Positions 25,161 to 27,563 of a DNA stretch of 38,621 bases are shown here, piece after piece. Positions within the stretch are counted from its first letter, which is position 1, and each line of letters begins with the position of its first letter. The stretch is from Bryobacteraceae bacterium (GTDB taxonomy: Bacteria > Acidobacteriota > Terriglobia > Bryobacterales > Bryobacteraceae), in the NCBI GenBank assembly GCA_019748195.1, contig JAIEPW010000093.1, positions 1-38,621 of the forward strand. The letters are read 5' to 3'. Made by a program: the position numbers and the translations under genes. The notes beneath the pieces were generated by a model, which searched no databases, was not told the origin of the DNA, and saw only the letters and a list, made by a program, of their open reading frames with translations.

Positions 25161-26345
25161 CTACGCGCCCAAAGCCGCCGTGGTTTGGACCAAGTTACTG
25201 TTCATCCGCTCCCGCGCCACTGCCCGCGCTTCCCGATCCACTTCCAGCACTTCGGCCACCGAAGTGGGAGTCCGCGCCGGCATCCGGTTCAGCGTCTCCT
25301 CTACCACAACCGGGATCGCCAGGAACGGAATTTGCCGGGTCAGGAACGCCTCCACCGCCACCTCATCGGCGGCGTTTAGAACGCAGGTCGCCGCCCCGCC
25401 TGCTTGCTGGGCTTCGTAAGCCATTCTTAGCAAAGGGAATCTCTGGAAGTCAGGCGCCTCGAAGTTCCACGTCCGGCTCTCCCGCCAGTCAAGCCTCGGC
25501 ACTGGCGCGTCCATACGCTCCGGATACGTCATCGCGTACTGAATCGGCATCCTCATGTCGGTCGCCGAGACTTGCGCGATGACACTCCCATCGGTGAACT
25601 CGACCATGGCGTGAATCGACGACTGCGGATGCACCACAACATCCACTTGCGACGGCGGAAAGTCAAACAGCCAGCACGCCTCAATGACCTCAAAACCCTT
25701 GTTCATCAACGTCGCCGAGTCTATCGTGATGCGCGGGCCCATCTTCCAGGTAGGATGATTCAACGCCTGCTCCGGCGTCACCGCCGCCATTTTTTCCTGG
25801 GGTGTATTGCGGAACGGTCCACCCGAGGCGGTCAGGATCAGCTTCGCGACTTCGCCCCGCAGCCCCGCCCGCAAACACTGGTGCGCGCCGTTGTGTTCGC
25901 TGTCCACAGGGATGATCTCCGTGCCCGCCCGGCGCGCCGCCTCCATCACCAGCCGCCCGGCGGCGACCAGCGTCTCTTTATTCGCCAAGCCCACTCGCTT
26001 GCCTCGAACCACGGCTTCGTAGGTCGCTTCCAGCCCCGCGACTCCGACAATCGCGCTGAGTACGAACTGCGCTTCCGGCGCGATCGCTGCCTGCACATAA
26101 GCCGAGGATCCGAAGGAGATTTCCGGCTTGTGCTCGCCCAACAGGGGGCGCAGGCGCAACGCCGCGGCCTCGCTGGCCAGAACGACTACCTCCGGCCGGA
26201 ATTCGCGTACTTGTTGCGCCAGCAGTTCGACATTGTTCCCGGCCACCAGTGCAAACACTTGAAACTGGTCCGGACGCTTGCGGACCACGTCCAAGGTGCT
26301 GGTTCCAATGGAGCCAGTAGAGCCGAGAAGAGTCAGTCTCGTCAC
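25161..26345 (-). CDS. dxr: 1-deoxy-D-xylulose 5-phosphate reductoisomerase
   Basis: Second enzyme of the non-mevalonate (MEP) isoprenoid pathway, 394 residues from GTG 26345 (MTRLTLLGSTGSIG). It has the NADPH loop GSTGSIGTSTLDV, the ANKETLVAAG segment, the metal/substrate residues in VDSEHN, ASGGPFR and HPTWKMGPRITIDSATLMNKGFEVIEA, and the C-terminal helical domain. The first open codon is GTG 26363, but GTG 26345 gives the usual N-terminus and has an extended -10 (TGG-TATCAT) ending 8 nt upstream. Co-transcribed with rseP. A structured RNA candidate lies about 60 nt further upstream. Confidence 0.96.
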   Translation of the reverse strand: MTRLTLLGSTGSIGTSTLDVVRKRPDQFQVFALVAGNNVELLAQQVREFRPEVVVLASEAAALRLRPLLGEHKPEISFGSSAYVQAAIAPEAQFVLSAIVGVAGLEATYEAVVRGKRVGLANKETLVAAGRLVMEAARRAGTEIIPVDSEHNGAHQCLRAGLRGEVAKLILTASGGPFRNTPQEKMAAVTPEQALNHPTWKMGPRITIDSATLMNKGFEVIEACWLFDFPPSQVDVVVHPQSSIHAMVEFTDGSVIAQVSATDMRMPIQYAMTYPERMDAPVPRLDWRESRTWNFEAPDFQRFPLLRMAYEAQQAGGAATCVLNAADEVAVEAFLTRQIPFLAIPVVVEETLNRMPARTPTSVAEVLEVDREARAVARERMNSNLVQTTAALGA

Positions 26346-26353
26346 GTTTTCTG

Positions 26354-26359
26354 ATGATA
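26354..26359 (-). promoter_or_regulatory. Extended -10 box 8 nt before the dxr GTG
   Basis: TGG-TATCAT on the minus strand ends 8 nt before GTG 26345. It predicts a near-leaderless dxr-rseP mRNA. No recognisable -35. Confidence 0.45.
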
Positions 26360-26404
26360 CCACTGCTGTTGGAGGAGTTTGCCCGGCGAACGATGGCTTG
26401 CTTT

Positions 26405-26511
26405 GCTCTGAAGCCCTGGTGAAAACTGAACCCTTGCGGGCGCCGGGGAGGATGCTTCAGGGGTCTTTAATGAGGTTAGTCTCGCTTTGGTGGGAGTTGC
26501 CTCCCCGGCTT
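26405..26511 (-). ncRNA. Candidate structured (pseudoknotted) RNA upstream of dxr
   Basis: This lies in the only long non-coding stretch of the window (26346-26678). On the minus strand, a perfect 10-bp stem joins 26509-26500 (GCCGGGGAGG) with 26451-26442 (CCTCCCCGGC). Its 5' half can instead fold locally as GGGAG-GCAA-CTCCC (26505-26492), a GNRA-capped hairpin. A second GCAA-capped hairpin lies at 26440-26431. A 7-bp pairing CTGAAGC (26460-26454) with GCTTCAG (26414-26408) links the loop to downstream sequence, forming a pseudoknot. I do not recognise a known riboswitch class. It could be a cis-regulatory leader of dxr or an independent small RNA. Confidence 0.4.
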
Positions 26512-26518
26512 GATTCCA

Positions 26519-26547
26519 ATACTAGTATAGTTCGCCCGTGAATGCAA
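26519..26547 (-). promoter_or_regulatory. Candidate promoter for the structured RNA, overlapped by ACTAGT palindromes
   Basis: On the minus strand, TTGCAT (26542-26547), a 17-nt spacer and TAGTAT (26519-26524). The -10 overlaps the 10-bp palindrome ATACTAGTAT (26519-26528), and the -35 abuts or overlaps AACTAGTT (26546-26553). The two ACTAGT cores are 26 bp apart, which could mark an operator. The surrounding 150 nt are clearly more AT-rich than the rest of the window. Confidence 0.3.
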
Positions 26548-26678
26548 CTAGTTTTTGTAGTTTACTGAAAAAAGTTTAATGGAAGGCAAGTGATTGTAAA
26601 CCCTATGTAAATAGAGACCCCCTACGCATACCGTCGAACGGGTATACGGTTCCTGGTAGAAGGCCGTACCATCTTTGA

Positions 26679-27563
26679 TTAAGAACCTTTCACCTTCACC
26701 CCGCCCCATCGCTCCATCACCTGGATTGTGGCGCAAAAATCCTCCTCCGCGTGCCCTTCGGCGATCGCAGCCTGGAACATCTGTTGCGTCAAGGCGGTAA
26801 GCGGCAGCGGTACGTCATTGGCCTTACCAGCCTCCAGCGCCAGTCCGATGTCCTTGTGCATCCACTTGGTAGCGAAGTTGGTCTGAAAGTCCCGCCGCAG
26901 TACGAAAGGCGCCTTGAAACTGATCAACCCGGACTTCGCCGCCGAGTTATTCAGAATCTCTAACATGAGCTCCGGCCGAACCCCCGCTTTTGTCGCCAAC
27001 ACCATGCCCTCGCTGAACGCCTGCATCACGTTCGCCAGGATCAGATTCTGGGTCAACTTGGCCTGAAGTCCCATACCCGGACCGCCGCAATAGTACAGAA
27101 GCTTGCCCATCGGCTCGAAGTACGGCCGGACCCGCTCGAACACGCCCTGATCTCCCCCCACCATGAAGGTCAGCGTTCCGCCCTCCGCCCCCGGCTTGGA
27201 ACCGGTGCACGGGGCATCCAGGAAATGGACACCCTTGGCCCGGTACGCTCCGTGCAGCTTCCGGCTTATTTCCGGGGAGATTGTGGAGCAGTCCACCGCG
27301 ACCCCGCCCGGCTTCATTCCTTCCAGTAAGGACATCGCCGTGAACTCGGACATCGCCGAGTCCCCGACGCAATAAAACACCACCTCGGACTCCGCCGCCA
27401 CCTGGCCGGGCGTCTCGCAGAACAGCCCGTCCGCGGTCGCAGCCAGTTCCCGGGCCTTGGCGGCCGTGTTCGACCACAGCGCGACGCGATGTCCCGCCTG
27501 AAGCAGTTGAGCCGCCATCGGCTTGCCCATGATCCCGAGTCCGCAAAATCCCAGCTTTGCCAT
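26679..27563 (-). CDS. Beta-hydroxyacid dehydrogenase (glyoxylate/succinic semialdehyde reductase-like)
   Basis: NAD(P)-dependent dehydrogenase of 294 residues. It has the N-terminal Rossmann loop GLGIMGKPMA, the substrate motif DAPCTGSKPGAEGGTL near residues 120-135, and the catalytic Lys in GLQAKLTQNLI (about 171-173). The ending KDIGLALEAGKANDVPLPLTAL is typical of 3-hydroxyisobutyrate dehydrogenase relatives. The TGSKPGAE form resembles the glyoxylate/succinic semialdehyde reductase (GLYR) branch, but the exact substrate is uncertain. The frame is open far upstream, but MAKLGFCGLGIMG is the obvious N-terminus, and TACAAT lies 9 nt before the ATG. Confidence 0.9.
   Translation of the reverse strand: MAKLGFCGLGIMGKPMAAQLLQAGHRVALWSNTAAKARELAATADGLFCETPGQVAAESEVVFYCVGDSAMSEFTAMSLLEGMKPGGVAVDCSTISPEISRKLHGAYRAKGVHFLDAPCTGSKPGAEGGTLTFMVGGDQGVFERVRPYFEPMGKLLYYCGGPGMGLQAKLTQNLILANVMQAFSEGMVLATKAGVRPELMLEILNNSAAKSGLISFKAPFVLRRDFQTNFATKWMHKDIGLALEAGKANDVPLPLTALTQQMFQAAIAEGHAEEDFCATIQVMERWGGVKVKGS

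Follow-up and report, generated by a model that had tools for sequence, protein, structure and literature searches.

Upstream of dxr, on the minus strand of the window (the whole stretch of 38,621 nt that was analysed), lies a sequence with several possible pairings, and the question is whether it controls dxr or is an RNA gene of its own. A preliminary description took the range 26405–26511 for a candidate structured RNA, a riboswitch or other regulatory RNA upstream of dxr, with a long-range stem, two GCAA-capped hairpins and a pseudoknot. Comparison with relatives has to decide the case, because folding energy alone was uninformative: for the single sequence z was -0.01, and 93 of 200 shuffles folded as well. 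The conserved unit, listed in Table 1, is about 80 nt long (26511 to 26431) and is accompanied by a promoter at 26547–26519; the range 26405–26511 takes in non-conserved sequence 3′ of the RNA. Read 5′ to 3′ on the minus strand, the order is TTGCAT, a 17-nt spacer, TAGTAT, GCCGGGGAGG, a 48-nt loop, CCTCCCCGGC, P3 and dxr, which starts at GTG 26363 or GTG 26345. In its own genome the covariance model matched 26431–26519 with 110 bits (E 1.3e-28).

Table 1. Features of the RNA locus upstream of dxr, in window coordinates
Feature	Position	Strand	Evidence or remark
-35 hexamer TTGCAT	26542..26547	-	TTGC prominent in the profile of 137 copies from the window's family (f1), at constant distance 5′ of the stem
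-10 hexamer TAGTAT	26519..26524	-	A/T-rich, conserved; 17 nt past the -35; ends 10 nt 5′ of the stem
Small RNA, conserved body	26431..26511	-	both transcript ends putative; covariance model match 26431–26519
P1 5′ strand, long-range stem, GCCGGGGAGG	26500..26509	-	covariation
P1 3′ strand, CCTCCCCGGC	26442..26451	-	covariation
Competing hairpin P2, GGGAG-GCAA-CTCCC	26492..26505	-	excludes inner part of P1; 97.5% of cells paired, 7 double changes, controls mixed
Loop block 1, CTCCCACCAAAGCGAGACTAACCTC	26472..26496	-	nearly invariant in alignments
Loop block 2, AAAGACCCCTGAAGCA	26453..26468	-	nearly invariant in alignments
3′ hairpin P3, CCC-GCAA-GGG	26431..26440	-	some hairpin there in 130 of 156 copies, 47 expected
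Extended -10, TGGTATCAT, candidate dxr promoter, outside the RNA	26354..26362	-	motif counts upstream of dxr

The 10-bp stem of the preliminary description, P1, is perfect in the window (26509–26500 with 26451–26442) and covaries strongly in relatives. In an alignment of 104 of the 156 unique copies, from which near-duplicates were removed and which was not fitted to the structure, 98.7% of 1035 cells were paired and 31 double-change cells were spread over 5 of the 10 pairs, compared with 0–7 such cells in slid controls. By a weaker measure, which counts further pair types, 29 of 500 shuffles reached the value of P1. A more divergent set (30 matches from 29 chosen loci), aligned to a model that contains P1, gave 25 double-change cells over 7 of the 10 pairs, and its slid controls gave 0–1. 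Compensatory variants of the stem include GCCAGGGAGG/CCTCCCTGGC, GACGGGGGGG/CCCTCCCGTC and GCCGGGGAGC/GCTCCCCGGC. The loop closed by P1 is about 50 nt long and rich in C and A (A 40%, C 35%, G 12% and T 13% in the 104 copies); it holds two nearly invariant blocks with a predicted mean unpaired probability of 0.66–0.78.

The other pairings fared differently. The competing hairpin P2 (GGGAG 26505–26501 with CTCCC 26496–26492) is present and kept, but its covariation gives it moderate support: the double-change cells fell in 2 of its 5 pairs, slid controls had 0–4 of them, one slid control exceeded P2 in covariation score and two did so in pair types. The P2 loop varies in length and sequence. 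Predicted folds of growing chains had P2 at 30–66 nt and P1 at 70 nt and more, and the predicted full-length energies were -26.3 kcal/mol with P1 versus -20.4 kcal/mol with P2 enforced. The second GCAA-capped hairpin is also there (P3, CCC 26440–26438 with GGG 26433–26431). The proposed 7-bp pseudoknot (CTGAAGC 26460–26454 with GCTTCAG 26414–26408) exists in the window but is not a feature of the family: of the 140 copies with CTGAAGC, 5 have GCTTCAG after it, compared with 0.6 expected from shuffles, which makes it a rare pairing, above chance. An inner 3-bp hairpin, GAG/CUC, which was predicted by alifold and contained in the covariance model R1, is lost in genus g39 of the sister family f3 and was not credited. 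The sequence 3′ of P3 could not be aligned among copies, and they share no expression platform. As a separate observation, 33 of 140 copies (0.3 in shuffles) have 3′ of the RNA the sequence GGGTCTT, which complements the invariant loop sequence AAGACCC and is absent in the others; this pairing is possibly an extra helix specific to a lineage.

In the window's family, f1, searches with R1 found the RNA in 181 of the 200 genomes sampled (133 of 140 among the good ones); they also found it in 143 of 150 genomes of an order sample, including both genomes of the sister family f2, and, in a separate search, in 17 of 18 genomes of f3. The preliminary description had staked its claim of a structured regulatory-type RNA on conservation and covariation in relatives, and both are clearly present. 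Most of these f1 genomes (166 of the 181) have one match and 15 have two or three. One f1 genome without the RNA (G034) likewise had no dxr match, so some absences may be assembly gaps. Outside the order no convincing match was found in a phylum sample of 396 genomes: four matched, three of which belong to the window's family and one of which (L065) is a simple perfect hairpin and not the RNA, and the blocks are absent by eye from two weak matches (L243 and L244). Viral contigs had 0 exact matches to the core pattern, and plasmids had no match to the RNA.

Conservation within the order was followed by two further routes. Of 61 genomes, 60 had a dxr match, although that in G037 (E 9e-4) is too weak to be relied on. 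At 24 of 30 dxr loci read, own genome included, a search with a 33-nt core that tolerated up to 6 edits found the element; across these 24 loci the only change at positions 26491–26472, most of block 1, is a single base in a single genome, and block 2 too is almost invariant. An exact-core pattern scan of named genomes gave at least 119 stretches, and the 80 matches listed are by label Acidobacteria (many Bryobacterales, Bryobacteraceae, Solibacteraceae or Sulfopaludibacter), with one exception labelled Acidimicrobiia, which probably corresponds to contig 3 of G031, a genome placed in the window's own family. The 156 unique copies combine dxr-seeded loci, best model matches, hand-picked atypical loci and the exact-core scan matches listed; the set is thus enriched for dxr neighbours, and neither the proportion of copies near dxr nor that of identical cores is free of bias. 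One f3 copy (L103) escapes the text pattern and is present in the model-based sets only. Between the loop blocks the spacer varies in length, with each value from 3 to 11 nt represented, and this speaks against a coding sequence. In g39 block 1 has diverged and C-rich stretches are kept. An RNA that about nine-tenths of the sampled genomes of the family have kept, and whose blocks hardly change from one family to another, is likely to be important.

We consider it probable that this is a stand-alone small RNA gene of the Bryobacterales, which acts in trans by pairing of its C-rich loop with mRNAs; its transcription, its action in trans, the base pairing and the targets are what we infer, and the folding order and start site come from computation. 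RNA polymerase would start at the RNA's own sigma-70-like promoter, near 26512–26510 and about 3 nt before the stem, and make an RNA at least about 80 nt long. While the chain is being transcribed, its G-rich 5′ strand would pair first with CUCCC to form the short GNRA hairpin P2, which the distal strand would then displace to give P1. The stem would expose a C/A-rich, G-poor single-stranded loop with the blocks CUCCCACC...CUAACCUC and AAAGACCCCUGAAGCA, which may pair with purine-rich ribosome-binding regions of distant mRNAs, as C-rich and anti-Shine–Dalgarno sRNAs do. The conserved unpaired C-rich segments that mark C-rich sRNAs are found here in the invariant blocks, in their predicted unpaired state and in the loop composition; the stand-alone gene with its own promoter that marks trans-acting sRNAs is indicated by synteny and promoter conservation. 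Seed complements showed no excess in the start regions of dxr (125) or of the upstream dehydrogenase gene (84), and these two mRNAs were rejected as targets. Such an RNA can be tested in non-pathogenic soil bacteria.

A stand-alone RNA could also work without pairing to mRNA, by binding a protein or forming a ribonucleoprotein through the two blocks, like 6S RNA or protein-titrating RNAs. We regard this as rather unlikely, and it has real points in its favour, since the RNA is nearly single copy per genome, its long unpaired blocks are very highly conserved and its putative 5′ end is tucked into a stable stem. Moreover, the near-invariance of whole blocks of 16–25 nt exceeds the needs of a short seed, and protein binding could be its cause. 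However, Rfam gave no match to 6S RNA (RF00013) at the RNA, the genome's weak 6S-like match sits elsewhere and is below the cut-off, and the blocks are C-rich and G-poor, resembling the pairing regions of C-rich sRNAs. That other match, at G000:C124:1-166 (L123) of the window's genome, has 29.4 bits compared with a cut-off of 46.4 and is possibly the 6S RNA of this lineage.

A further reading, close to that of the preliminary description, takes the sequence for a riboswitch or other cis-acting leader of dxr, switched by the exchange of P1 and P2. It agrees with the mutual exclusion of P1 and P2 and with the position of dxr, since 113 of the 156 unique copies have dxr downstream and in the same orientation. 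However, among 147 copies with enough context (in the other 9 of 156 it is incomplete on one side) 34 have no dxr downstream and none within 2 kb, and 6 of these 34 run away from dxr. Of these 34 dxr-less copies 33 were inspected, and 17 of them face a called gene on the opposite strand as their next neighbour; the kinds of gene vary; the calls came from a crude ORF caller, and some small ORFs are doubtful. In six genomes (G007, G016, G019, G021, G028 and G036) the blocks are kept in the RNA and dxr is on another contig. A hydroxyacid-dehydrogenase-like gene, named from its sequence with no domain search behind the name, neighbours the RNA upstream in 125 of 156 copies, as frequently as dxr. 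The g39 copies have a different gene neighbourhood. Thus the RNA is independent of dxr in position and orientation, though it often adjoins dxr. By synteny the leader was already unlikely, and the absence of a conserved expression platform between RNA and gene, the 3′ sequence being unalignable, and the promoter motif of dxr itself also stand against it; we now consider a leader or riboswitch of dxr very unlikely. A conserved RNA upstream of a gene need not be that gene's riboswitch.

The promoters were examined in 154 copies, 2 of the 156 having been dropped. In the 137-copy f1 profile the -35 and -10 positions are prominent, with up to 1.9 bits, at constant distance from P1, and the commonest placement, a -35 at -38 with a 17-nt spacer, is found in 78 of the 154 copies. 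By generic consensus score the best promoter-like pair was barely better than shuffles, so the case for the promoter rests on conservation and not on score. Promoter conservation and synteny together suggest that the RNA, presumably transcribed, is a gene of its own. Terminators were examined with 1 copy dropped. An intrinsic terminator lies directly 3′ of the RNA in 7 of 16 f3 copies (0.3 expected), and in g39 a terminator stands at the end of 7 of 10 copies. In f1 and f2 copies together, 2 of 139 have one (2 expected); because they are no commoner there than in shuffles, which also agrees with a dxr leader, transcripts may read through into dxr. The extended -10 before dxr was found in 54 of the 105 dxr genes that have the RNA upstream and in 7 of the 20 that lack it, compared with 1.1 and 0.2 in shuffles. 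In the window this motif, TGGTATCAT, is about 8 nt 5′ of GTG 26345; should dxr be translated from that start, its mRNA would seem to have hardly any 5′ leader or none. At L072 (G123, three copies), L073 (G168) and L074 (G111) the RNA occurs two or three times in tandem between the upstream dehydrogenase gene and dxr, and each copy has a promoter-like region of its own.

A metabolite-sensing or otherwise self-contained structured RNA, such as an aptamer acting in trans, is highly improbable: invariant loop blocks and competing folds are as in ligand-binding RNAs, but the copies share no expression platform, and block 1 has diverged in g39 while C-rich stretches remain.

If the RNA is a trans-acting sRNA, as we favour, its relation to Hfq is of interest. 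A search for the Hfq family detected it in 18 of 19 f1 genomes (62% complete is the one without it), in 2 of 2 f2 genomes and in 5 of 18 f3 genomes; the f1 and f2 counts favour the sRNA reading, and the f3 counts speak against it. It was undetected in 13 of the 18 f3 genomes, namely all 11 of g39 and single genomes of g42 and g45, and the RNA is present in 12 of these 13. An sRNA dependent on Hfq should have Hfq wherever it occurs, and in f3 the RNA occurs in genomes where Hfq was undetected. Among the Hfq-less f3 genomes dxr was near the RNA in 0 of the 12 loci read; among the Hfq-bearing ones the RNA is beside dxr in 4 of 5. Hfq thus seems to have been lost throughout one f3 genus, in 11 of 11 genomes, and also in two other genera sampled by one genome each; in these genomes the RNA has moved from dxr and, in one genus, has partly diverged. 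The apparent loss and the relocation are correlated and may go back to one ancestral event.

The Rfam scan that the preliminary description called for was run on the window at the gathering cut-off and, with E up to 10, on the 361 bp around the RNA (26330–26690), and nothing fell on the RNA. This agrees with the earlier statement that it resembles no known riboswitch class. The suggested comparison with Acido-1 (RF01686) and Acido-Lenti-1 (RF01687) gave zero matches to either model even at E up to 10 in 26330–26690. The RNA family is therefore without Rfam counterpart, novelty being judged against Rfam models, and the 224 RNA motifs that a 2017 paper reportedly describes were compared as far as they are in Rfam. 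In open literature the non-cis motifs Acido-1 and Acido-Lenti-1 of the Acidobacteria (in the part of PMC2864571 available) share with the Bryobacterales RNA their phylum and their standing as orphan non-cis RNAs; they differ in that their models do not match it. Table 1 of the same source also lists Solibacter-1, marked ‘?’ as an RNA, not cis, from Solibacter usitatus and without an Rfam accession. It is a candidate RNA of the same order, set beside ours by that table entry, and identity is possible; as Solibacter-1 is known to us by its description, an earlier glimpse of the same RNA there is conceivable. This entry was the sole related one in the open-licence literature searched, so far as the sources were available, and no sRNA study of Bryobacterales was found there.

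In likely function the nearest analogues appear to be two groups of C-rich sRNAs, neither of which we claim as family. The alpha-r14 sRNAs such as NfeR1 carry the anti-Shine–Dalgarno motif CCUCCUCCC and, in the part of PMC10746234 that was available, resemble the Bryobacterales RNA in having stems that present conserved unpaired C-rich motifs. According to the same part of that source they belong to another phylum and have three hairpins with the same short motif in each, whereas the Bryobacterales RNA has one long-range stem and two long, differing blocks and lacks CCUCCUCCC. RoxS, FsrA and CsfG of Bacillus subtilis are sRNAs with C-rich regions, and in RoxS and FsrA these unpaired regions act on mRNAs (PMC8216469, in the part available), to which the C-rich loop of the Bryobacterales RNA corresponds. 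These three are from Firmicutes and are likened to it by description and not by sequence or structure.

A possible relative was found in other families of the phylum. A widened model (R2) matched a locus of another family at E 0.07 (L245), which is not significant alone and led to an RNA that we call type B; model R3 was built from nine type B sequences of that family. With E up to 0.05, R3 had matches in 46 of the 396 phylum genomes, one to four in each; the strong ones were in families f42, f48, f55, f61, f69 and f87. Type B begins directly after a TATAAT-like box and has varied neighbours according to a crude gene caller. It forms a pseudoknot of two covarying helices, with 51 double-change cells over 11 of 15 pairs in 32 distinct rows and 9 cells in 6 pairs for the first nine sequences. 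An Rfam scan of the nine type B loci gave no match on the RNA.

R3 was also run, with E up to 10, on 22 loci (122 kb) that hold the Bryobacterales RNA. It gave two matches, with E 0.12 and 0.36, each of which coincided exactly with the RNA over its full length and in the correct orientation; the remaining 20 of the 22 loci had no match, and neither did the window's own genome at 0.05. These matches suggest common descent of the two RNAs. They share a promoter box just 5′, the arrangement GCCGG...GGAG..AACUCCCACC and a C-rich loop closed by a long-range stem, and type B differs by an extra covarying 5′ helix that makes the pseudoknot, by its one to four matches per genome and by another second block. 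It is a tentative possibility that an ancient Acidobacteriota family of C-rich regulatory RNAs, whose 5′ strand swaps partners, has one branch in the Bryobacterales, the RNA by dxr, which would be a core post-transcriptional regulator able to work without Hfq. If this were so, the 5′ strand would be shared between a short hairpin and a long stem in the Bryobacterales and would form a true pseudoknot in the other branch. Examples of type B, each with a 5′ helix and a long-range stem, are at L249 1527–1602, L252 1494–1575 and L261–L287, and its C-rich block GGUUCCCAUCAUCAACCCCCCUUUUGCUGACA is nearly unchanged in many copies.
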